Below are positions 46,662-64,000 of a DNA stretch of 64,000 nt, piece after piece. Source of the stretch: Cyanobacterium stanieri PCC 7202 (GTDB lineage Bacteria; Cyanobacteriota; Cyanobacteriia; Cyanobacteriales; Cyanobacteriaceae); contig CP003940.1 of assembly GCA_000317655.1 (NCBI GenBank), forward strand, positions 248,001-312,000. Reading direction: 5' to 3'. The translations under genes and the position numbers were made by a program. Position 1 is the first letter of the stretch. Each line of letters begins with the position of its first letter. The notes below the pieces were generated by a model, which was given only the letters and a program-made list of their open reading frames with translations, searched no databases and had not been told where the DNA came from.

Positions 46662-49600
46662 ATGACTCAGATTTCCCCGAAACCTACTCCAGAGCAACCA
46701 GAAGAAACATCCCCCAACCAAAGACAAGAATCTGGTAACGAGGAGAAGAATAACTCCCCCATGGAATCTTCCGATACCGTTATCAGTAAATCAGGAAATG
46801 GCTTAAGTTCTTGGTGGCAAAGACAAAATCTCAAAAATAAAGCTACCATTACCGCTATTTTGATGGGTGTAATACCTTCTATTGTAGTAGGGGCGATCGG
46901 TTATATTTCTACCAACAGTCAATTTAGAAATCAAATTGATACTCAAATCCAACAAAACGCCCAAGGGGTTAGTCGGGAAATTCAAACATATCTGATCAAC
47001 CGTTACGACAACATTAGAAGTATTAGTGAATCTGACGTACTAACCATCCAAGAATTAAGAGGTATACCCGTTACCGAAGCAGATAAAGAAGTATATCTCA
47101 ACCGTTACCTCGAAATTTATCCTGACTATACATTTATCAACATTCTCGAATTGAATGGCACATCGAGGATTTCCACAGGACAAATTCCTTTGCCCAATCA
47201 ATTTACTCAATCTTATTTTGAGCAAATTATTACCACCCAACAGGGTAATATCAGTCGGGTTCAAGAAATAAACGGTCAAAACTATATCCTCATTGGCTCA
47301 CCAATTTTAGATGCCAACAATCAGATGACAGGGGTAGTCGTGGGAGGAATATCCGTTGATAGTATCCAAGATAAATTGAATTATGTAGCAGAAAACAATC
47401 AAGAGTTTTACATTGTTGATAACGAAAACAATATTGTCTTTTCTGGAGATTTGAACGTTGTGGGGCAACCCCTAGGAGATGTGATTCCCCAAGCCCAAAA
47501 CGTAATTACAGGACAAGAAAACCTATCCAACTTACCCGTTAGTGAAGGGGTAAGAAATGGAGAACAAATTTTGATCGGTTTTCAAACTTGGCAACAACAA
47601 CAAGAGGTATGGAAAACCATTATCACCCTTGATAGTCGGACCGCCTTTGCCCATCAAAATGCCCTTTTAGGTTGGTTATTTGCCGGGGTAGTAATTACTG
47701 GGGCGGCGGTAAGTGTGGCTTCTCTATATCTAGCCAAAAGAGCTACTAGCCCTATTTTAGAAGTATCCGATGCGGTGAAAAAAATCGGAGAAGGAGATCT
47801 CGACCAAGAAATTCCTGTACGTAGTGAAGATGAAATTGGCTTATTAGCCAGTAACTTTAATGAGATGACCTCCCAATTAAGGGAATTAATCCAAGATCAA
47901 CAGATTTTTGCCAATCAATCTAACTTACTGAAAAATATTACCTTTGAAATGACCAAGGCTTTCGAGGTAAACGAAGTATTTGCGATCGCCGTTACGGAAA
48001 TTCGTAAAGCCCTCAAATCAGACCGAGTGATAGTGTACAGTTTTGATGAAAATTGGGCAGGTACCATCGTTTCTGAATCCGTCGATCCCCAATATCCCAA
48101 AGCCTTTGGGGCAAGGATTCATGACCCTTGTTTTGAAGAAAAATATATCGATAAATACCTCAACGGTAGAGTCCAAGCCACCGATGATATATATAGAGCG
48201 GGATTGACAGATTGTCACCTCAAACAACTAGAACCCTTTGCCGTCAAAGCCAACCTTGTCGCGCCAATCCTTGTGCAAGATAAACTATTAGGGTTACTCA
48301 TTGCCCATCAATGTTCCTCCCCCAGAAACTGGCGCCCCCACGAAATCGATTTTCTCACCCAAACCGCAACCCAAATTGGGCCTGCCCTTGAAAGGGTGAT
48401 GTTGTTGGAAAATCAGCAGTTAGATAGTTTCCTCTCCACCAAACTCAAGGATATTAGTTTCAAAATTGCCGAATCCCTAACCCAAGATAAGGTTTTTGAG
48501 GTAGCCACCGAAGAAACCCGTTTGGCATTGAGATCAGATCGAGTCATTGTCTATACCTTTGACGAAGACTGGAAAGGTACAATCATCGCCGAATCAGTGG
48601 ATTCTCAATATCCCGAAGCCCTTGGGGCGATGATCAAAGATCCTTGTTTTGCAGATAAATATGTCGAAAAATATAAACAAGGCAGAGTTCAATCTACCCC
48701 CAACATTTACACCGCAGGATTAACCAAATGCCACATTGAACAACTAGAACCCTTTGAGGTGAAAGCCAATCTTGTTACCCCCATTATCGTTGATGGAGAA
48801 CTATTAGGATTATTAATTGCCCACCAATGCTCTGCTCCCCGTCAGTGGACGGAGTCCGAGTCGGGTTTCCTTTCCCAGTTAGCCACCCAAATCGGGCCTG
48901 CCCTAGAAAGGGTGCAACTGTTGGAACGTCAAAAGTTGGCAGAAAGTACCCAAAGGCAACAAAAAGAAACCATCCAACAACGAGCCTTAGAGTTGTTGAT
49001 GCAGGTAGATCCTGTATCCCAAGGGGATTTGACCATTCGAGCCACGGTAACAGAGGATGAAATTGGTACCATCGCTGACTCCTACAATGCCACCATTGAG
49101 AGTTTAAGAAAGCTGGTAACTCAGGTACAGGGTGGATCCCACGCAGTTACGGAAGTTGTGAAGGAACAAGAAGAATTTATCAGTAACCTTGCCACAGAAA
49201 TCCTGCGTCAGTCTGATGATATAAACATCGCCCTAGAACGTATCCAATCTCTTTCCCTTTCCGCTCGTTTGGTAAGGGATAATGCAGAACAGGCAGAACA
49301 AGCGGTTCAGCAGTCCAACCGCAGTGTAGAGGAAGGGGAGATAGCCATGAATCGTACCGTAGATGGTATCCTTGCCATTCGAGAAACTGTGGCGGAAACA
49401 GCCAAAAAGGTAAAACGACTAGGGGAATCTACTCAGAAAATTTCTAAGGTGGTTAACCTGATTAGTAGTTTTGCGGATCAAACCAACCTTTTGGCATTGA
49501 ATGCCTCCATTGAGGCGGCCCACGCAGGGGAAGAAGGTCGAGGGTTTGCGGTGGTAGCAGAAGAGGTGCGCTCTTTGGCTCGTCAGTCTGCCGAAGCTAC

Positions 49601-49958
49601 TGCGGACATTGAAAAAGTGGTGGCGGAAATTCAGCAGGAAACCAATGAGGTGGTAAAAGCCATGGAAGCAGGTACAGAGCAGGTGGTAGAGGGTACAAGA
49701 TTGGTAGAGGAAACTCGTTCTTCCTTGACCCAAATTACTGCGGCATCTGCTCAGATTAATCAGTTGGTAACCGCTATTTCGGCGGCGGCGGCGGAACAGT
49801 CTCAAACATCGGAGGAAATTACTGAAACTATGGCAGATGTTGCCACCATTGCCACGGAAACCTCCACAGCGGTGGATGATGTCTCCCGTAAATTCCGTAA
49901 ACTCTTGAAAGTATCGGAAAACTTACAACTCAGTGTTAGTAAATTTAAAGTTAAATAA
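46662..49958 (+). CDS. PixJ-like chemoreceptor with two DXCF-type GAF domains
   Basis: The 1098-residue protein has, in order, a polar N terminus, a membrane helix (about 65-85), an extracellular Cache-like domain, a second helix (about 335-357) and a HAMP domain. Two GAF domains follow (about 430-590 and 605-760), then a second HAMP-like region and a methyl-accepting signalling domain. The signalling tip reads [20 protein letters not shown]. Both GAF domains have DPCF and, 28 residues later, a Cys-His pair: Cys490/Cys518 in GAF1 and Cys662/Cys690 in GAF2. This spacing and the AGLT-x-CH context match bilin-binding GAF domains of the phototaxis receptor PixJ. It probably links light and ligand sensing to type IV pilus motility. 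No che/pix kinase genes are adjacent. Confidence 0.88.
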
Positions 49959-50036
49959 CCCCATGGGTAACTAGGTAATTCTTTGTACCTAGTTCCTTGA
50001 TTGATGCTTGTATTATCCCTTATCCCTTAATTGACC

Positions 50037-53000
50037 ATGACTCAAACACCGCAAAAACCAAAACTCAATTTAGATAGTATTCCCACCAATAATAAAACTC
50101 GCTTAGTGGTTGATACCCCTATACAAAATCGCAAGGCAAAAACCGTCAAAAAAGAATCTTCTCCCTTAGTGCAATGGTTTTTTGATCTTTCCTTGCGCCG
50201 TAAACAGTTATTGGTATTATTGAGTGCGCAAACCGTGGCGATCGCCTCTTTGGTGGGAGTCAGTGTAACCCAAATCATCAGTGGGGGTAGACAACAATTA
50301 ATTAACCAATCTGCCTCTGAATTAGAAGCCTCAAAAATTAACTACGACATTAAAGTTAATCAGATGGGGTTTGGTTTTCGGGGACAGTCCGATAACACCG
50401 CTATTATTGAAGCCGCCATCGCAGGGGATGACATAACCCCCGAAGATCGAGCCATCGTTCGACAGATTCTCGCCAATGAAATTACCGCCCGTAACATTGA
50501 ATATGCTACCCTCGTGGGCTTGGATGGTCGTATTATCGTCAATGCTAACAACGATCGCACCGGGGAACTATTTGATCCCAATGGTTTGGTAAGTAGAGTC
50601 ATCGAAAATCCAGAACAAATTAGAATTAGTGAATTAGTACCTTGGGAAGACCTAGAAAGAGAAAATCCCCCCAACCTAGGACTCTTTGAACCGGGATTCC
50701 CTGCCCTGATTCGTTATACCTTTACCCCCGTATTTGCCCTTAACACCAATCAAGTGGTGGGGGTATTGGTATCAGGGGATGTGGTCAACGGAAAATATAC
50801 CATCGTAGAAGACACCGTCGAAGAATTTAACGGCGGTTATGCAGCCATTTACAAACTCATCGAAGGACAAGAATTTCGTTTGGCCAGTTCCCTATTAGGT
50901 ATCGATGACACTAGGGAAAGAGACATCATCATGGAAGATGAAACCGTATTAAATCAATCCCTCATCGATCCCGATGATATTTTCGCCGAACGTACCTCCA
51001 TCGAAGGGGAAATATATACCGTCACCGCCCAAGTTATTCAAAACAGTTTGGGAGACTCCGTGGGTATCATCGTTCGTGGTACCCCCGAAAGAGATTTAAA
51101 CTCCATTCTCACCAACAGCGTTACCCTCCAAATTCAAGTTGCCGTGGGGGTAATCTTATTTAGTCTTTTACTGATCATCATTCTCGGCAAGGCGATCGCC
51201 CAGAGGGTAGAATCCTTACAAGGAACCACCGAAAAATTCATGGCAGGGGATTACGATGTTCAGGCACAAATCCTCGGAGATGATGAAATCGGGAAACTAG
51301 CTAGAACCTTTAATGAACTAGCCACCAACATCGCCAATAACGAAGGGATGTTATTACTTGACAACGAAAAAGGGGTATTACTCCAAGAAATCACAGGCTC
51401 TCGTACCCTCGATGAAGATGACGTTAACAAAGTATTTGACAAAGCCCTCATTAAAACCAAGGAAATCCTCAAAGTAGATCGCCTCGTGATCTATCGTTTC
51501 AAACCCGACTGGAGTGGTTATATTTCCAACGAAGCAGGGGATGCTAGATTCCCCAGTGCCTTGAATGAAAAAATTAATGACCCCTGTATTCCCCTAGAAC
51601 TCAGACAAGCCTATATCAACGGTCGGGTAGTACCCACAGAAAACGTATACAAAGCAGGATTTGCCCCCGAACATGAGGCACTAATGCACCGACTAGAAAT
51701 TAAATCTAATCTGGTCGTACCCATTATTAGCCAAGGAAAACTATTCGCTCTCTTAATTGCCCATCATTGTCAAAACCATCATACTTGGGGCGAGAAAGAA
51801 ATCAGTTTTATGGGGCAAATTGCCCTCCGTTTTGGGGTAATTTTGGATCGGGTAAGTTTGTTAAAATCCCAAATGATTGCCGCCCGTAGGGCAGAACAAC
51901 TCAAGGAAATTACCCTTTCTATTGCGTCCAAAACTAACCGAGCAGAACTTTTAGATCAGGTAGTAGATGAAATTCGTGATGCCCTTGGAGCCGATCGCAG
52001 CATCGTTTATGAGTTTGACGAAAACTGGCAGGGAACTATTGTGGCAGAATCAGTAGATTCCAAATATCCCGAAGCCCTTGGAGCAGTTATTGCGGATCCT
52101 TGCTTTGCAGATCGTTATGTAGAAAAATATGAACAAGGTAGAGTACAAGCTACCCCCAATATTTACGAAGCAGGACTAACCGAATGTCATTTAAAACAAC
52201 TACAACCCTTTGAAGTGGTTGCCAACTTAGTGGCTCCCATTTTGGTAGATCAAAAACTACTGGGTTTATTAATTTGTCACCAATGTTCTGGGGAAAGAGA
52301 ATGGGAAGCAGGGGAAATAGAACTATTCAGTCAACTTTCTACCCAAGTCGGTTTAGGGTTAGAAAGGGTACAGTTGTTGGATGTTCAACGTAATTCTGAG
52401 CAAGAACAAAGACAGGCGAAAGAGTTATTACAAAAACGGGCGTTAGATCTACTTATGCAGGTAGATCCCGTTTCTGATGGTGATTTGACCATTCGAGCTA
52501 GTGTGACGGAGGATGAAATCGGTACCATTGCTGACTCCTACAACGCTACCATTGAGAGTTTACGTAAAATTGTATCTCAGGTACAAACTGCTGCTAATTC
52601 CGTAACCAAAACCACCACGGTTAATGAAAATGACGTTAATGTTTTACAAGCTGAAATTCAGGAGCAGGTGTTGAATATTACTCAGGCTTTAAAAACCATC
52701 GAAGCCATGAGTAATTCGAGTAGTTTGGTGGCAGAAAATGCTGAACAAGCGGAGGAAGCACTACAAAGAGCTCAAGAAAGTGTGGAAATAGGGGAAGTTG
52801 CCATGAATCGTACGGTAAAATCGATTATGGAAATTCGGTCGACGGTACAACAGGCGGCCAAACAGATGAAAAAATTGGGGGATACCACCCAAAATATTTC
52901 TAATGTGGTAGCTCTTATTGGTCGTTTTGCCGCTCAAACCCACCTTTTGGCTCTCAAGGCATCCATTGAGGCCGCCCGTGCAGGGGAACAAGGAACAGGT

Positions 53001-53414
53001 TTTGCGGTAATTGCAGAGGAGGTAAGAACTTTGGCAACTCAATCGGCTTCGGCGACGGCAGACATTGAAAAGTTGGTGACGGAAATTCTTTCGGAAACCA
53101 AAATCGTGGTCACGGCTATGGAGCAGGGTAATGAGCAGGTGGTAGAAGGTAGTAAGCTGGTGGAGGAAACCCGTCAGAGTCTCAACCAAATTACGGCGGC
53201 TACTTCTCAGATTAATGAGTTGGTAGAGGCGATCGCCACTGCGGCTTTTGAACAGTCGGAAAACTCTGAAGATGTCGGGGAAAAGATGACTGATGTGGCA
53301 AAGGTTGCTCAAAAAACCACTGTCTCTGTAACTAAGTTATCTGATTCTTTCCGTCAATTGCTCCAAGTAGCTCGGGAATTGGAGTCGAATGTATCTCAGT
53401 TTAAGGTTGGGTAG
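50037..53414 (+). CDS. Second PixJ-like chemoreceptor, one intact and one degenerate GAF
   Basis: A paralogue of the previous gene, 78 bp downstream on the same strand. It has an N-terminal helix (about 60-85), a periplasmic sensor domain, a second helix near residue 370, HAMP, two GAF domains, a HAMP-like segment and a signalling domain. GAF2 keeps DPCF (Cys689) and ECH 28 residues later (Cys717). GAF1 has DPCI at Cys517 and Glu-His where the second Cys should be, so it should not hold a bilin covalently. The signalling tip is [20 protein letters not shown], with Thr for the usual Arg. I chose the ATG at 50037; a TTG lies two codons earlier. Confidence 0.87.
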
Positions 53415-54926: not shown

Positions 54927-55067
54927 ATGGAAGATAAAGGAAAATTAGGTTTCACCGCATTTGCTGAAAACTGGAATGGTCGTTTAGCAATGTTAGGATT
55001 TTTAATCGGTATCTTAACCGAGTTATTAACTGGTCAAGGTATTCTCTCTCAATTAGGCTTAATGTAA
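54927..55067 (+). CDS. hli: High-light-inducible protein (HLIP)
   Basis: This short gene encodes 46 residues: MEDKGKLGFTAFAENWNGRL, then AMLGFLIGILTELLTGQGIL and SQLGLM. The single membrane helix with [12 protein letters not shown] is the chlorophyll-binding ExxN-R motif of HLIPs (Scp/small CAB-like proteins). These proteins bind chlorophyll and carotenoid and protect photosystem assembly under excess light. The ribosome-binding site AGGAGA is 6 bases before the ATG, and a strong terminator follows at 55113, so it is a single-gene unit. Confidence 0.96.
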   Translation: MEDKGKLGFTAFAENWNGRLAMLGFLIGILTELLTGQGILSQLGLM

Positions 55068-55142: not shown

Positions 55143-55223
55143 TCCTAACTCTTTATTAACGTAGAGGATAAAGAGCGAAAAAATTAGGAAAAATAATCAA
55201 AAATAACATAGCAAGGAAAAATT

Positions 55224-55258
55224 AATTATCAATTCTCAATTATCAATTATCAATTGTT
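55224..55258. repeat. AATTATC heptamer repeat, five units
   Basis: The units read AATTATC, AATTCTC, AATTATC, AATTATC and AATTGTT. This second heptamer family also appears near 53417 and 54687. It lies about 95 bp before the olefin synthase start codon, in a 284-bp gap with no other clear signal apart from the hli terminator. Confidence 0.8.
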
Positions 55259-55351
55259 AATATGGTATGATCTGAAAATTCATAATTGTGAATTGTTAAA
55301 GATTGTTTCATAATTATACAAACACTTAATAATCAGGTTGATTCGATATAC

Positions 55352-56662
55352 ATGGGATACGTTAGACACTCTAGTTTCGTCAGTCTTCTTCAAGAGCGTG
55401 CAGTCTCGCACCCAAATCAAATTATCTTCACTTTCTTAGGGGATGGTGAGAACGAGTCTGATTGTCTAACTTATCATCAATTGGATCAACAAGCAAGGGC
55501 GATCGCCCATAAACTCCAAAGCGAAAAAGCCAAAGGAGAAAGAGCATTATTATTGTACCAACCAGGACTAGAATTCGTCACCGCCTTCCTCGGTTGCCTC
55601 TATGCAGGAGTCATCGCCACCCCTGCCTACCCTCCCCGTGCCAATCGTTCCTATACTCGTCTCTCTGCTATCATTAAGGATGCAGGGGCATTATTCGCCC
55701 TCACCACCCAGGCACTCAAAGAAAAAATTGAGCAAAAACTGACCAAAAATAACGATATAACCTGTCTCACTACTGATGATATTCCCCTCAGCCTAGCCCA
55801 AGACTGGCAACCAGCATTAGTCACCCCATCAGAAACTGCCTTCTTACAATATACTAGCGGCTCCACAGGCACACCCAAAGGAGTTATAGTAAGTCATGGT
55901 AACCTCATCCATAATTCTCACCTCATCAAAAATTTTTTTGAAAATGATGACCATTGCATCGGTGCATCTTGGCTTCCCCCATACCATGACATGGGCTTAA
56001 TTGGTGGTATTTTACAACCCATCTACTCCCGCATTTCTACCATCATGTTACCCCCCGTTACCTTCCTCCAGCGCCCCATCCGTTGGTTACGGGCTATCAG
56101 TAAGTATAAAGTCACTACCACAGGGGGGCCTAACTTTGCTTACGAAATGTGTGTTAATTCCGTTACTCCCAAGCAAAAGAAGGATTTAGACTTAAGCCAT
56201 TGGAAACTAGCTTTTAGTGGTGCTGAACCTGTCAGGGCGGAAACTATGGCTAAATTTAGCGAATATTTCGCTGATTGTGGCTTTAATCAGGATGCCTTTT
56301 ATCCTTGTTATGGTATGGCAGAAACTACCCTGATTGTATCAGGGGCAAAAAAAACTCAACCCCCTGTGGTTAAAAACATCTCTGCCACTAAGTTGCAGGA
56401 AAATCATATTCTTTTTAACCCTGAAGATGATAAGGATGTGCAAACTGTTGTTAGTAGTGGTAATGTTTCTCCTGAATTGGAGGGAATCATTGTTAATCCT
56501 GAAACCTTAGTAGAATGCGCGGATAATCAGGTAGGGGAGATATGGGTAAAAGGGGAAAGTGTTGCCCAAGGTTATTGGTTAAAGGATGAATTAACAAAAA
56601 ATACCTTTTCTGCGAAGACAAAAAACGGAAAAAAAAGGGCTTTTTGCGCACTGGTGATTTAG
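55352..56662 (+). CDS. ols: Olefin synthase, FAAL part before frame change
   Basis: This is the N-terminal 436 residues of a fatty acyl-AMP ligase, the loading domain of olefin synthase. It activates a fatty acid with ATP and passes it to the adjacent ACP. Motifs: the ATP loop YTSGSTGTPKGVIVSHGN at about 167-185, SWLPPYHDMGLIGGILQP near 212, GGPNFAYEMC near 260 and CYGMAETTLIVSG near 325. The frame reaches a stop at 56662 after KTKNGKK. The expected continuation (GFLRTGDLGF and so on) follows in the -1 frame, so the true product is almost certainly the fused protein. The ATG at 55352 gives the normal N terminus. Confidence 0.9.
   Translation: MGYVRHSSFVSLLQERAVSHPNQIIFTFLGDGENESDCLTYHQLDQQARAIAHKLQSEKAKGERALLLYQPGLEFVTAFLGCLYAGVIATPAYPPRANRSYTRLSAIIKDAGALFALTTQALKEKIEQKLTKNNDITCLTTDDIPLSLAQDWQPALVTPSETAFLQYTSGSTGTPKGVIVSHGNLIHNSHLIKNFFENDDHCIGASWLPPYHDMGLIGGILQPIYSRISTIMLPPVTFLQRPIRWLRAISKYKVTTTGGPNFAYEMCVNSVTPKQKKDLDLSHWKLAFSGAEPVRAETMAKFSEYFADCGFNQDAFYPCYGMAETTLIVSGAKKTQPPVVKNISATKLQENHILFNPEDDKDVQTVVSSGNVSPELEGIIVNPETLVECADNQVGEIWVKGESVAQGYWLKDELTKNTFSAKTKNGKKRAFCALVI
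56629..56636 (+). other. A8 run: frame change within olefin synthase
   Basis: The sequence GG-A8-GGG sits where the frame must shift by -1, or gain one base, to join the two parts of the FAAL domain. With nine A residues the gene would read straight through as K-K-G-F-L-R-T-G-D. In the 0 frame the run is read GGA AAA AAA AGG, so A_AAA_AAA is a possible slippery heptamer. A sequencing or assembly error in the homopolymer is also possible. Confidence 0.85.
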
Positions 56663-59600
56663 GTTTTATCAGTGGTGGGGAGTTATTTGTTACGGGAAGA
56701 TTAAAGGATTTAATTATTATTAGAGGTAGAAATCATTATCCCCAAGATATTGAGGAGAGTGTGGGTAATATTCATGAAGCTATTAATTCAGAAAGTGGTG
56801 CCGCTTTTGCTATTGAGACGGATAATGATGAGCAATTGGTGGTCATTTTTGAGGTTAAACGAACTTTTTTGCAAAAGATAAATCAAGATGATGATTTGAA
56901 GCAGGAGGTTTTTAATGCTATTCGTCAAGTGGTTGCTGAAAATCACGAATTACAGGTTTATTCTATTGTTTTGATTCGCACGGGTAGTATTCCTAAAACA
57001 TCTAGCGGTAAAATTGCTCGTTATGCTTGTCGTAAGGAGTTTTTGGCAGGTAATTTATCTGTGGTGGCTCAGTGGGATTTACATAATAATATTTCTGAGA
57101 AAAAACAAGCTAATATTAAAAATATTAATAGAATAAAAAATATTGTTTCTAATACTAATAGAAACATTAGTAAAAATACTATTAAAATACAGCAATGGTT
57201 GATTAATAATTTAGCTAATCGCTTACAAGTAAATCCTAATTCAATCGATATAGAACAACCTTTTATAAATTATGGGCTTGATTCCGTCCAAGCTGTCCAG
57301 CTTACGGCGGATTTAGAAGATTATTTAAACTGTAAATTATCGCCAACTTTGGCGTATGATTACCCTAATATTAAAAGTTTATCTTTGTATTTGTCGGAGT
57401 TGAAAACCGATAAAATTATTGCCTTAGATGATGGTGAAAGCATAACTAATAAAACAGAACAAATCGCCATCGTCGCCATGGCTTGTCGTTTTCCGGGGGC
57501 GGATAATCCTCATAAATATTGGCAATTTTTATCTAAAGGTGATAGTAATATTAATAAAACTTATCTGCGCCCGAACATCGATAATTTTGGGGGGTATATA
57601 GAAGATTATGACAAATTTGATCCACAGTTTTTTGGTATTTCCGCCCGAGAGGCGATTAATATTGATCCTCAACAGCGTTTATTATTAGAAGTGGCTTATG
57701 AGGCGCTGGAAAATGGCCATTTGACAACGGAAAAATTGTCGGGTAGTGCCACGGGGGTATTTGTGGGTATCAGTAGCCAAGATTATGCCCAGTTGCAGAT
57801 GAAACATGGTTGGGGGGTTAATGTTTATTCTGGCACAGGAAACTCAGGGGCGATCGCATCTAACCGTATATCCTATAATTTTAATTTAACTGGGCCTTCT
57901 TTGAGTGTGGATACGGCTTGTTCATCCTCTTTGGTTGCGGTACACTTAGCAGTAAATAGTCTCAAAAATAGGGAGTGTGACTGCGCCATCGTGGGCGGAG
58001 TTAACTTAATCCTTGCCCCTGAATTGACAGAAACTTTCCAAAAAGCAGGGATGATGGCGGAAGATGGCAAGTGTAAGACATTCTCGGAAGATGCTGATGG
58101 TTATGGGCGAGGAGAAGGTTGTGGGGTAGTTATCCTCAAACCCCTGGATAAAGCCTTAGCCGACGGTGACAAGGTTTTGGCAGTAATTCATGGTAGCGCC
58201 ATTAATCAAGATGGGCGTAGTAATGGTTTAACAGCGCCTTCAGGCAAAGCGCAACAGAGGGTAATTCAATCAGCGTGGAAAAATGCGTCTATTACCCCTG
58301 ATAAAATTAATTATATCGAAGCTCACGGAACTGGAACACCTTTAGGAGATCCTATCGAGGTTAATTCTTTGGCTGGTTTGTTACCTTTACTAGATGGGCA
58401 ACAGACTGTTAACTATTCTTCTGCTATCGGTGAAAATGAGCAAAAGTCTTCCTCGGATGGTGTGGTTAATGGCAATGAGGAAAAGACTTCCCCTCAGAGT
58501 GTAGGTGATGAAGAAAAAGAGTCTTATTCTGTTATCGGTAACAATGAGGAAAAGACTTCTTCTGATAGTGTGGAAAAAGATTCTTCTGTGGAGAAAGAAA
58601 CAAGAGGAAAAGACTACCCTATTTGTTGGTTAGGTAGTGCAAAAACAAACATCGGGCATTTAGAAGCCGCCGCAGGTATTGCGGGATTAATTAAAACCGT
58701 CTTGATGTTAAACCATGAAGAGATACCCCCCATTGCTAACTTTAAAAAATTAAACCCCTATATCAACCTAGAAAATAGTCGTTTACGGATTGCCACTAAA
58801 TCTGTGTCATGGAAAAAATCCAGTCAACCTCGTTTTGCAGGGGTAAGTTCCTTTGGTTTTGGAGGCACAAACGCCCATGTTATAGTGGGAGATATGATGG
58901 ATTCCCCCGTAACTATAGAAGAAAAAGAAGTTAAGGCGCAAGAAAAAATAAAACGTCCTTACCATCTTTTAACCCTAAGTGCCACCACAGAAAAAGCCCT
59001 TCAAGATGTAGTGAATCGTTATCAAGATTATCTAATGAAAACCGAAGGGGATGATATTAGTCATATATGTTATAGCACAAATAAGGGGCGATCGCACCTT
59101 AACCATCGTCTAGGGATTCAGGCAAAAGATAAAAAAGAATTACTCGAAAAACTTTCCACCCTAACCATCAACCAAGATAACCAGATTAATCATAATCAGA
59201 TAGCCTTCCTATTTACAGGGCAAGGCTCACAGTATCATAATATGGGCAAAGAATTATATCAAACTGCCCCCCTATTCCAAGACAGCGTTAACTACTGTGG
59301 TGAGATTCTCAGTCAATACTTAGAAAAACCCCTCACCGAAATTATTTTTAACCCCGAGGAAAAAGAAACCCTCCATCAAACCATCTATACCCAACCCGCC
59401 ATTTTCGTCATCGAATATGCCCTTGCCCAACTATGGTTATCATGGGGCATCAAACCATCCATAATGATGGGGCATAGTGTCGGGGAATATGTTGCCGCCA
59501 CCCTTGCAGGAGTCTTTAGTTTAGAAGACGCCCTCAAACTCATTGCCCACCGTGGCAAACTCATGCAACAACTTCCCCTAGATGGGGGTATGGTATGTCT

Positions 59601-62600
59601 ATTTACCAACCTTGACACCGCGCAAACCCTCATCCAAAAAACAAGATTACCCCTCGACATAGCCGCCGTCAACGGTAACAGTAATATTGTGGTATCGGGC
59701 AAAAAAGAAGACTTACAACAACTACAAACCAGCGCCAAAGAAAACAAAATAAAATGTCGCCCCCTAAAAGTCTCCCATGGTTTCCATTCCCGATTGATGC
59801 AACCCATCTTGGCAGACTTTGAAAAAATTGCCCAAGAAGTTACCTACAATTCACCCCAAGGGGAAATTATCTCCAACATCACAGGAAAAACCATCGGCGC
59901 AGAAATCGCCTCCCCAGACTATTGGGTAAAACATATCAGTCATCCCGTAAACTTTGCCCAAAGTGTAGAGTATTTACAACAGCAAAACTACCAAATCTTT
60001 TTGGAAATCGGTAGTAAGCCAACCCTTTTGGGTATGGCGAGAATGATAGTGGAAAACAAAACTAACTCTGATGATTGTCTTTGGTTGCCTAGTTTACGTA
60101 AAGGAGAATCTGACTGGGAAAACTTACTCTCTAGTCTAGGTATTCTTTACCAGCAAGGATTCAAAATTGACTGGCATGGTTTTCATCAAGACTATCCTTA
60201 TTTACAAAGAGTTTCTTTGCCTAACTATCCTTGGCAACATCAAAGATACTGGCATGGGGATAGTAACATCATTGATGATAGTCAACAATGGTTATATGAG
60301 ATAGTCTGGGAAAAAGACACTTCTATTTCTCATACCAGTGAGGAAAAAACTACGGTAGTTTCTTCCTCCAAGGAGTTAGTTATGGGAGGGGTTGCTGTCA
60401 CTACCCACTCCTTTCCTAACCATGATGTTGTAACTCCAGAAAATACTCATCATTTACCGATTCATATCCATAACGAGGAAGAGTCTTTTCCTCTCAATAC
60501 CCCCAGTCGCTATTTAATCTTTGTGGATGAGAAAAAACAAGGGGAAGCATGGGCAAAAGAGTTAACCTCCCAAGGTAGTCAAGTTTATCTAGTCTATCAA
60601 GGGGAAAGTTATCGTCAGGAAGAAACTACCTATTATGTCAATCCAAAAAACAAACAAGACTATCAGTTATTATTAGACAGTCTCGATAATAAGATAGAAA
60701 AAATTATCTATGGTTGGGCTATCAATGAAGATGATGACTTACATAATATTAATCAGTTAAACGACAATAATTATTTAGACTGTTTACCTCTTATCTATCT
60801 AATTCAAAACTTAGTTAACAGTAACCATCACATCAAACTCTGGTTAATCACCCAAAACAGTCAATCCATTACCCATACAGAAAAAATTAATCCCTATGGT
60901 GGCAGTATCTGGGGATTAGGAAAAGTAATCTCCCTCGAACATAGCGAGTATTGGGGAGGTATGATTGACATAGATAATCAAGGGGTGTCTCTTCCTCTGT
61001 TAACCTACTTGATAAATCATCAAGAAAAAGAAACCATGACGGCAATCAGAAATAACTCTGTTTTCCATTGTCGTTTACAACACAAAACCCCTGACAGTTA
61101 TCAAGAAAACCCACAAGTTACCGTCACATCCTCTGGTAGTTATTTAATTACAGGGGGATTAGGCGCTTTAGGTTTAGAAACCGCCAATTATTTAATCAGT
61201 CAGGGGGCAAAAAATTTAATTCTCGTCTCCCGTAGTCAACCCTCTTCCTCCGCTTCTCAAAAAATTAGTCAATGGCAACAGCAGGGAATTAATGTCATCG
61301 TCAAACAAGGGGATGTCACGGAAAAAGAATCCCTCGCCCAAATTATCACCGATATTCGTCAATCTTTACCTCCCCTCAAAGGGGTTATCCATACCGCAGG
61401 GGTATTGGATGATGGTATCTTGGCAACTCTTTCCTCGGAAAAAATAGCTAAGGTAATGGCAGCTAAGGTAATGGGGGTAAATAATTTACATCAACTTACC
61501 CTTGATGATAACCTTGACTTTTTTATCTTGTATTCTTCCGTGGCTTCCATGGTAGGATCCATAGGACAAGGTAATTATGCCATGGCGAATAGTTATCTTG
61601 ATAGTTTTGCTTCCTATCGTCAATCCCTTGGTTTACCTGCTATCAGTATTAACTGGGGTGCTTTTTCTGTGGGTATGGCAAAGGCAACCCAAGAAAGTTT
61701 AACCAGTGTGGGTATTGAAACCATCCCCCCTCAAAAGGGTGTTGCCATGATAGGAGATTTAATTAATTATCCTCACTCCACTATGGGGGTAGTCAAGTTT
61801 AATTGGGATATACTTAGCCGTAAGTTTCCTCAATTATCCCTGTCTCCTTATCTAAAGGGTGTCGTTTCTTCCTCTTTGACAACAGAAGAAGATGAAAAGG
61901 ATGAGACTCAAACTCAATTATTCCATCAACTACTAAAAGCCGATGAGAGTGGCAGAATAACCCTATTAATAGATTATCTCATAGGGGCGATCGCCCTTAT
62001 CCTGCACATCGATAAGGAAAAAATTACCCCCGAAGATAGCCTGATGGATTTAGGGATGGATTCATTGATGGTAATGGAAGCCATCAACCACCTAAAAACC
62101 GACTTACAACTAATGTTATACCCTCGGGAAATTTACGAGCGCCCCCAAATTTCTACCCTGGCGCAGTATTTAGCCCAAGAGTTTGCCACCAGCCACGATA
62201 CACAAACCCCCCCCATCATCTCCCCCCAAAAAGAGATGATAATCTCCCCATCCCCCGAAGACGAGGAAGAAACTCCCACCTTTAACCCCACCAATCACCA
62301 ACCTATCGCCTTTATTTTATCAAGTCCGCGCTCAGGTTCAACTCTCCTACGAGTCATGTTAGCCGGGCATCCTGACTTGGTTTCCCCCCCCGAATTACAT
62401 CTATTACCCTTTGCCACCATGGAGGAAAGACAACGGGAATTAGAATCATCTCACCTCGGAGAGGGGTTAATTCGCACCATCATGGATTTAAAACAAATTA
62501 GTGCCGAAGAAAGTGAAGCATTAATTAATCAATGGGTAGAGGAAAATTTGACCATCGCCCAAGTATATGAAATCCTGCAGTCTCTCGGCGAAAATCGTAT

Positions 62601-64000
62601 TTTAATCGATAAATCGCCCACTTATGCCAACAGCAAAAATACCCTTTACAACGCAGAAAATATCTTTTCTCAAGCTAAATACATCCACCTAGTTCGTCAC
62701 CCATATTCTGTTATTGAATCTTTTGCACGGATGAGAATGGATAAATTACTAGATATAAAGGACGCAAACCCTTACAAAATTGGCGAAAATATTTGGTATC
62801 AAAGTAACAATAATGTAGAGAAATTTGGTCAATTAATAGACAGTAATAAAATACTTACTGTTTATTATGAAAATTTGGTGACTAATCCTGAAAAGGAAAT
62901 GCGAAAAATCACTAAATTTTTGGGAATTAAATATAATAAATCATTATTAAATCCCTACGAAGGGGAAAGAATGACCGCAGGATTATATAAACAATCCATG
63001 TCCGTGGGCGATCCTAACTTTAATAGTCGTAAAACCATCGATCCTAACTTAGCCAATCACTGGAAAAAAGTTCAATTACCCATTTTATTAAACCCTGCCA
63101 CCAGACAATTATCGGAACATTTTACCTATGAATTACCCCATGAATTAAAAACCATAGAAACCCAAGAAAAATATCTTAAAATCAGAGATTTAAACCTTTG
63201 TTATAGTAGTTGGGGTAATGAAAATAATCCTCCCCTATTTATTACCCATGGTATTTTAGATCAAGGATTAGCATGGGAAAAAGTAGCCCAAAACTTAGCC
63301 CAGAAAGGCTATTACGTCATCGCCCCCGATTTGCGAGGTCATGGAAAATCTGACCATAACAGTTTAGGATGTGCTTATAATTTGCTTGATTTTGTAGCAG
63401 ATTTAGACTGTTTAATTAACGAACTATCTCAAGATGACAAAATAACTTTATTAGGTCACTCTTTTGGTTCCATGATAACTGGAATTTATGCCAGTATGCG
63501 TCCTGAAAAAGTTGAACAATTGTACCTTGTTGAACCTATTTTACCCGCAGAAAATAAAGGTAACCAAGACATAGAAAACATTAGTAGTCAATTAAATAAC
63601 TTGCTCAATGTACCTCCACTACCCGTATTTGCCACAGTGGAAGTAGTCGCCCAAAGACTGCAAACCACCGCCCCCAATATGGATGGAGACTTTGCCCTCA
63701 AACTTGCCCAGAGGATGACTAAACCCGTAGATGGTGGAGTTACATTTACCTATGCTCCCCTCTTAGCAACGAGGGTAGGGGTTGGTTTTAACAGTATTCC
63801 CCGTAGTCAATATCTCCAACTGCTATCTCGTATCAGCGCCCCTATTACCCTAGTATATGGCGATAATAGTTCCTTTAATCGTCCTCAAGATTTGGAGGCA
63901 CAAAAAACTGCCATGGCAAAGGCTCAGATTTTCACTCTCTCAGGAGGGCATAACTTACATTTGGAAAATCCTGCAAATCTAGCAGAGATTGTATCAGGAT
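56635..64000 (+). CDS. ols: Olefin synthase, rest: FAAL end-ACP-KS-AT-KR-ACP-ST-TE, runs off edge
   Basis: One open frame continues to the window edge. Domains in order: FAAL C-terminal part (to about 57150); ACP with GLDSVQ, Ser at 57283. The ketosynthase spans about 57460-58900, with active Cys at 57919, His at 58324 and His at 58657. The acyltransferase (about 59190-60240) has GHSVGE with Ser at 59476, and HGFHS favours malonyl-CoA. The ketoreductase spans about 60290-61830, with GGLGALG, an LDD motif and Tyr at 61576. A second ACP has Ser at 62062. A PAPS-type sulfotransferase (about 62310-63130) has SSPRSGST. The thioesterase runs from about 63180, with GHSFGS Ser at 63460 and the His of GGHNLH near 63951. 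The set extends an acyl chain by two carbons, reduces it to the beta-alcohol, sulfates it, and releases a terminal alkene by hydrolysis, decarboxylation and sulfate loss. Confidence 0.95.
58417..58608 (+). repeat. Acidic repetitive insertion inside the ketosynthase
   Basis: Between the second catalytic His region (EAHGTGTPLGDP) and KTNIGHLEAAAG the protein has some 60 extra residues rich in Glu, Ser, Lys and Asn. An 18-base segment CAATGAGGAAAAGACTTC occurs at 58473-58490 and again at 58542-58559, a 69-base in-frame period (GNEEKTS / NNEEKTS). Related, more diverged units lie before and between. Confidence 0.8.

Follow-up and report, generated by a model that had tools for sequence, protein, structure and literature searches.

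An olefin synthase locus with a reading-frame break in Cyanobacterium stanieri PCC 7202 and DUF6208 as its likely partner gene

The locus at positions 55352–64014 (+ strand) of the window, the 64,000-base stretch of DNA analysed here (bases 248001–312000 of a single-contig genome of 3,163,381 bases), encodes a known enzyme, the olefin synthase (Ols), with a frame break in its FAAL that the earlier note on this DNA had overlooked. With a probability of about 0.8, we read this locus as the only one of the two known cyanobacterial hydrocarbon pathways found in C. stanieri PCC 7202; its frame break would not signify two purposely separate proteins, and a DUF6208 protein is its probable working partner.

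All eight domains proposed in the earlier note were recovered by Pfam and structural matches in the order FAAL-ACP-KS-AT-KR-ACP-ST-TE, the olefin synthase order, on the + strand (Table 1). They are spread across two overlapping frames: frame 1 carries an AMP-binding domain and ends within FAAL, and frame 2 carries the FAAL C-terminal domain, ACP, KS, AT, KR, a second ACP, a sulfotransferase and an alpha/beta hydrolase (Pfam). The locus is thus not the complete single gene that had been described. The nearest solved structure to its ST is PDB 4gox, which we take to be the ST of the Picosynechococcus sp. PCC 7002 Ols (the database row reads 'Polyketide synthase'), and 3qit is presumably the CurM TE. 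When the Ols TE was aligned with 3qit, Ser, Glu, Arg, Asn and His were present at all five positions that we assume to form the CurM TE active site (S100, E124, R205, N211 and H266). Together with the ST alignments to 4gox and 4gbm, these residues bear out a chain-ending ST-TE pair of Ols/CurM type, and the TE, followed past the window edge, is intact. The LDD motif of the KR is present as described. The AT motif is HGFH, which differs by one residue from HAFH, the malonyl motif. The Glu/Ser/Lys-rich insert in the KS varies in length within the genus and is absent in G007, G009 and G011; no tandem repeats were found in its DNA.

Table 1. Features of the Ols locus (window positions) and of the ADO homologue–Ols loci of family f25 (positions within the named locus)
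Feature	Position	Strand	Evidence or remark
FAAL N-terminal (AMP-binding) domain, frame 1, 436 aa, early stop	55352–56662	+	PF00501, E 8e-69; translation
Run of 8 A, reading frame changes by -1	56629–56636	+	9 A, in frame, in G001 and G004
Frame 2, 2,456 aa	56644–64014	+	overlaps frame 1
FAAL C-terminal domain, RTGD motif and SGK lysine, start of frame 2	56644–57069	+	PF23024; C-terminal ends of NF004509 and NF038339
ACP1	57193–57393	+	PF00550
KS with C-terminal linker	57457–59109	+	PF00109, PF02801, PF16197
Insert of ~75 residues, Glu/Ser/Lys-rich, KS loop	58384–58611	+	
AT	59206–60129	+	PF00698
KR	61135–61665	+	PF08659
ACP2	61966–62199	+	PF23297; two PF00550 stretches in frame 2
Sulfotransferase (ST)	62290–63150	+	PDB 4gox, E 2e-105, then CurM ST 4gbm
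Thioesterase (TE)	63163–63993	+	CurM TE 3qit, E 2e-71 (chain title 'Polyketide synthase')
Ols stop codon	64012–64014		ends 14 bases beyond the window end
f25 ADO homologue–Ols locus	L113, 3801–13431		
f25 ADO homologue–Ols locus	L114, 4128–13893	reverse	
f25 ADO homologue–Ols locus	L115, 4218–14455	reverse	
f25 ADO homologue–Ols locus	L116	reverse	
f25 ADO homologue–Ols locus	L117		

By analogy with Ols and CurM, the FAAL would adenylate a free fatty acid and load it onto ACP1, KS-AT would extend the chain by one malonate unit, and the KR would yield a beta-alcohol. Sulfation of this alcohol by the ST would then allow the TE to hydrolyse the thioester and drive loss of CO2 and sulfate, giving an odd-chain 1-alkene. 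The known Ols chemistry converts a Cn acid to a Cn+1 alkene, and loss of Ols slows the growth of PCC 7002 (PMC6361979). The PCC 7002 Ols has the same eight domains in the same order (PMC7381351, PMC11837247), a likeness at the level of domain order; unlike it, the PCC 7202 locus has the frame break in FAAL and the KS insert. The chain-ending CurM module of curacin A shares the ST-TE pair with its five aligned TE residues but is described in section 13 of PMC3903477 as lacking FAAL and ACP1. In Moorea and Leptolyngbya sp. PCC 6406, Ols is encoded by two ORFs and so likewise read in two frames, but there a gap of 9–17 bp separates a FAAL ORF from a PKS ORF (PMC3903477), whereas the cut in PCC 7202 falls within FAAL.

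The frame changes at GG-AAAAAAAA-GGG. Sisters G001 and G004 read continuously across the junction, and G003, G007, G009 and G011 are in frame there with no long A run, so that six of the seven other Ols genomes of family f1 are in frame; the contig of the seventh, G002, starts at the junction. A break at this site is therefore present in one genome only among the family-f1 Ols genomes compared. The frame 1 product has no C-terminal FAAL domain, and the SGK lysine lies in frame 2, whose first ATG (57478) is just within the KS and whose start codon closest to the break is a TTG at 56644, preceded by AAGGG. The 2,456 codons of frame 2 contain no internal stop, and dN/dS against the sisters is low throughout (FAAL-N 0.10–0.11, FAAL-C 0.08–0.11, remainder 0.16–0.19). 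A scan of 864 kb of the genome flagged six apparent genes, Ols included, that are broken at coding runs of 7–8 A, all in one direction and each as though a single A were missing; these pairs were flagged by the scan alone, as apparent single genes. Among coding runs of at least 7, 6 of 229 A runs were broken (223 intact) and 0 of 68 T runs; one A-run site (L286, other direction, ATG nearby) and one C-run site (L276) were left out of the six. The same scan over 400 kb of G001 returned one A9 site (L309), one A8 site in the opposite direction (L312) and four G-run sites. The other apparent A-run gene breaks of the PCC 7202 genome lie in L259 (two genes), L271 (position 10662) and L281 (two sites).

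We do not read the break as a designed division into two proteins. Six A-run breaks in one direction, each as if an A were lacking, fit under-called runs, and a deposited sequence that is one A short is our first choice. Three points run counter to this reading: all six broken runs are A on the coding strand, a bias that a strand-blind error need not give, although the numbers are too small to tell; the TTG with AAGGG could permit reinitiation; and the deposited sequence has no single frame for the whole FAAL. Our second choice, possible but unlikely, is that the frame is restored in the cell by RNA polymerase or ribosome slippage on A-AAA-AAA-AGG, giving a short FAAL-N product alongside full Ols. 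Consistent with slippage, the break coincides with a slippery heptamer and the required shift is -1; selection is intact downstream, and all six A-run breaks of the sample require one direction. A predicted hairpin begins 2 nt past the run (z -2.19; 4 of 200 shuffles equally good), but its spacing from the run is shorter than is usual for frameshift stimulators. When the six in-frame relatives were folded, G001 gave a similar hairpin and the sister genome G004 none; the hairpin is therefore not tied to the break, and we dropped it as evidence for programmed frameshifting. The confinement of the break to a single genome also argues against slippage.

A 2025 review calls the C. stanieri PCC 7202 FAAL "stand-alone", citing Zhu 2018 (PMC11837247, section 3.3), which would make the FAAL and the PKS two true proteins. 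The two overlapping frames and the two-ORF loci of Moorea and Leptolyngbya speak for such an arrangement, yet the break falls inside FAAL, the FAAL C-terminal domain sits in the PKS frame rather than with a whole FAAL, frame 2 has no ATG before the KS, and all six junction-spanning relatives are in frame. We consider this arrangement very improbable; the review's statement probably stems from the one-base difference at the 8-A run and needs rechecking before others build on it. That same difference, present in the deposited sequence, might instead mark a recent null mutant that makes no 1-alkene. This too is improbable: the rest of the gene retains an open frame under low dN/dS, and the strain would be left with neither known hydrocarbon pathway. 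PMC7381351 cites fatty acid values of PCC 7202 that come from the work of Zhu 2018 on terminal olefin profiles; it is silent, where it cites them, on whether the strain makes olefins. A missing A in the deposited sequence remains our preferred explanation.

Neither ADO nor AAR (above the TIGR04058 cut-off) was found in the PCC 7202 genome, as the earlier note had expected; the Synechococcus elongatus control scored above the cut-off for ADO. The 15 genomes of family f1 divide into eight with Ols and no ADO and seven with ADO and no Ols, and none has both. AAR was above cut-off in six of the seven ADO genomes, the exception being G012 (67% complete), and in none of the eight Ols genomes, where G002 gave an 18-bit match far below it. 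This either/or pattern is in line with Coates 2014 (PMC3903477) and Knoot 2019 (PMC6361979).

Across a class sample of 388 genomes, Ols was counted by an Ols-type ST with E of at most 1e-80, a cut-off set after seeing a gap from 8.9e-86 to 8.5e-59. By this measure Ols occurs in 33 genomes belonging to eight families, and ADO occurs in 350. DUF6208 (PF19713) was above cut-off in 34 genomes: 32 of the 33 with Ols versus 2 of the 355 others (Fisher p 3e-43, kinship ignored). No match was obtained in any of 14 control genomes. The Ols-linked gene is a plain DUF6208 member; in PCC 7202 it lies outside the window (G000:C1:66468–67364), with Ols at about 303–312 kb. Within family f1, DUF6208 is present in eight of eight Ols genomes (G002 partial, 50 bits) and none of the seven others; within family f25, in four of four and none of two. 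In G329, the one Ols genome without DUF6208, 315 bases separate the ST from a contig end, and DUF6208 often sits on that side. DUF6208 occurs without Ols in two genomes: G392, which is 73% complete, and G378, in which it adjoins a polyketide gene whose domains are KS, a partially matched AT and ACP. G177 is among the genomes with DUF6208, and its ST-TE has a tree distance of zero to that of PCC 7117. G179 has a DUF6208 match below cut-off that contains three stops.

We conclude that DUF6208 is likely a partner gene of Ols. The association could instead arise only through inheritance or transfer of the two genes as one block, which we regard as unlikely. Such a block is suggested by the 21 of 32 co-occurring genomes in which the pair lies within 5 kb, and by the correlation of Ols and DUF6208 protein distances (Mantel r 0.75, 22 taxa, 0 of 2000 permutations), which shared descent alone would likewise give. 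Yet the pair is retained in the remaining 11 of 32 genomes: in seven, among them PCC 7202, a long distance separates the genes on a single contig, in one they are ~8 kb apart, and in three they are on different contigs. Moreover, the eight genomes with weaker ST matches, not counted as Ols, all have ADO and all lack DUF6208. No papers naming DUF6208 or PF19713 were found among the open-licence literature. The Ols pathway to 1-alkenes is regarded as needing a single gene; should a second gene accompany it in nearly every case, studies confined to Ols may have missed a part. A true partnership would also make DUF6208 a new handle on the role of hydrocarbons in cyanobacterial membranes.

An AlphaFold model of DUF6208 (nine sequences; mean pLDDT 77.6, pTM 0.72) has a long N-terminal helix rich in hydrophobic residues (residues 4–39), followed by two beta-strand stretches connected by helices; invariant residues include R70, W71, N72, H74, Y145 and Y146. 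Among structural matches 6ans ranks first but is still a weak one (Z 10.2, rmsd 5.7 Å, 244 residues aligned), with 3u07 (Z 7.8) and 3vb9 (Z 7.6) behind it; the fold name used for comparison, VPA0735-like, comes from PMC2744874. Foldseek gave E-values down to 3.4e-05, and the TM-score never exceeded 0.41 among the best 50 matches listed, so no fold family was assigned. From co-occurrence and this weak fold match, we suggest that DUF6208 may be a membrane-anchored partner that receives the 1-alkene or passes it on to the membrane; the main alternative is an enzyme acting on the alkene.

The earlier statement that known genomes tend to carry either Ols or AAR/ADO, which holds in family f1, has an exception in family f25. 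Of the six genomes in this family, four have Ols together with an ADO homologue (G024, G059, G073 and G107, 4 of the 33 Ols genomes), and sisters G084 and G095 have a canonical ADO. In each of these four, the ADO homologue immediately precedes the FAAL of Ols. It aligns over nearly the whole ADO length and scores above the PF11266 cut-off of 28 bits (270–295 bits in all four, versus 413–414 bits for G084 and G095). The motifs at the positions that we take to be the ADO metal ligands are kept; the G073 copy was missed by the pattern [MI]ERRH, its sequence there being VERRH, which retains E and H. The f25 homologue differs from canonical ADO in two respects. Canonical ADOs have 113 columns conserved to at least 95%, and 65 of these are shared by all three f25 copies compared; in addition, its genomes lack AAR above the TIGR04058 cut-off (0 of 4, at 93, 87, 88 and 62% completeness for G024, G059, G073 and G107; a 19-bit match in G107 falls far below). 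AAR is above cut-off in both sisters. The G024 copy is 69–76% identical to the other three, 52% to the canonical ADOs of G084 and G095, and 43–53% to its matches outside f25 (145 genomes searched). Among the f25 homologues dN/dS is 0.10–0.16 (six pairs; dS high). In 181 genomes, Klähn 2014 found none that keeps ado or aar alone, the pair being clustered with accA in 61% (PMC4094844).

The gene order at this locus points to a replacement in place. G084 reads rpsA, creatininase, ADO, AAR and accA at a contig end; G024 and G107 read, on one contig, rpsA, creatininase, ADO homologue, Ols, DUF6208 and accA, so that Ols occupies the AAR position of G084. A 268-aa frame without Pfam match precedes DUF6208 in G024. 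In G073, no creatininase or accA was found in the stretch read, and Ols is split across three frames; in G059, each half of the locus is on a contig of its own, and its Ols likewise has a broken frame. On L123, a contig of a Prochloraceae MAG, the consecutive genes are Ols, one with HEAT repeats, DUF6208 and accA. No ADO or AAR was found by tblastn (E 1e-3) in 28 other loci compared. A FastTree phylogeny placed the f25 homologues outside the canonical ADOs (31 of 37 loci, three of the four f25 copies). A mixture-model tree placed them beside the canonical ADOs of the same family (88/88, not starred; 25 of 37 loci, all four f25 copies), 12 rows that did not match the search pattern having been dropped. 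Taken together, the two trees favour descent of the f25 homologue from the resident ADO. The f25 copies of Ols group as a single clade in the Ols tree (1.00), with a weakly supported placement (0.51).

The f25 Ols thus looks, from sequence comparison, like a pathway swap in place and an exception to the rule that the two pathways never co-occur. We lean towards a broader reading, in which DUF6208 is a dedicated, undescribed component of the 1-alkene pathway and the either/or pattern arises partly from such swaps: the f25 Ols-DUF6208 block would have taken the seat of AAR between ado and accA, and the orphan ADO, under selection, may have a new substrate. No literature on Ols in the place of AAR, or on a divergent ADO beside Ols, was found among open-licence papers. 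The f25 locus hints at a way for a lineage to switch from one hydrocarbon pathway to the other, and it bears on why the two pathways seem mutually exclusive.

The Ols locus of PCC 7202 also appears to be mosaic. Compared with G004 in blocks of 300 bases, the PKS (57301–63900) is 92–98% identical and the FAAL (55501–57300) 77–85%; block 55201–55500 is 91% identical, and the four blocks upstream 78, 90, 88 and 91%. Either the loading domain or the PKS thus seems to differ in its history from the other. Two other loci compared gave 92% and 80% identity, so either part may be the one that was exchanged.

Several further observations were made on related genes and neighbours of the locus. PCC 7202 has a second FAAL (G000:C1:1532219–1533514, - strand) in an open frame of 586 aa; it shares 43% identity with the N domain of the Ols FAAL, and its RTGD region is in frame. 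Four genomes with ADO (G230, G268, G306 and G395) have open frames of 449–465 aa whose ST is 37–38% identical to the Ols ST. Just upstream of Ols, a 46-aa gene (window 54927–55067) matched the chlorophyll-binding family (high-light-inducible type) weakly, with a score under the cut-off, and is 98–100% identical in G001 and G004. At window positions 46662–53414 lie two large adjacent chemoreceptor-type genes (HAMP, GAF, MCP signal).
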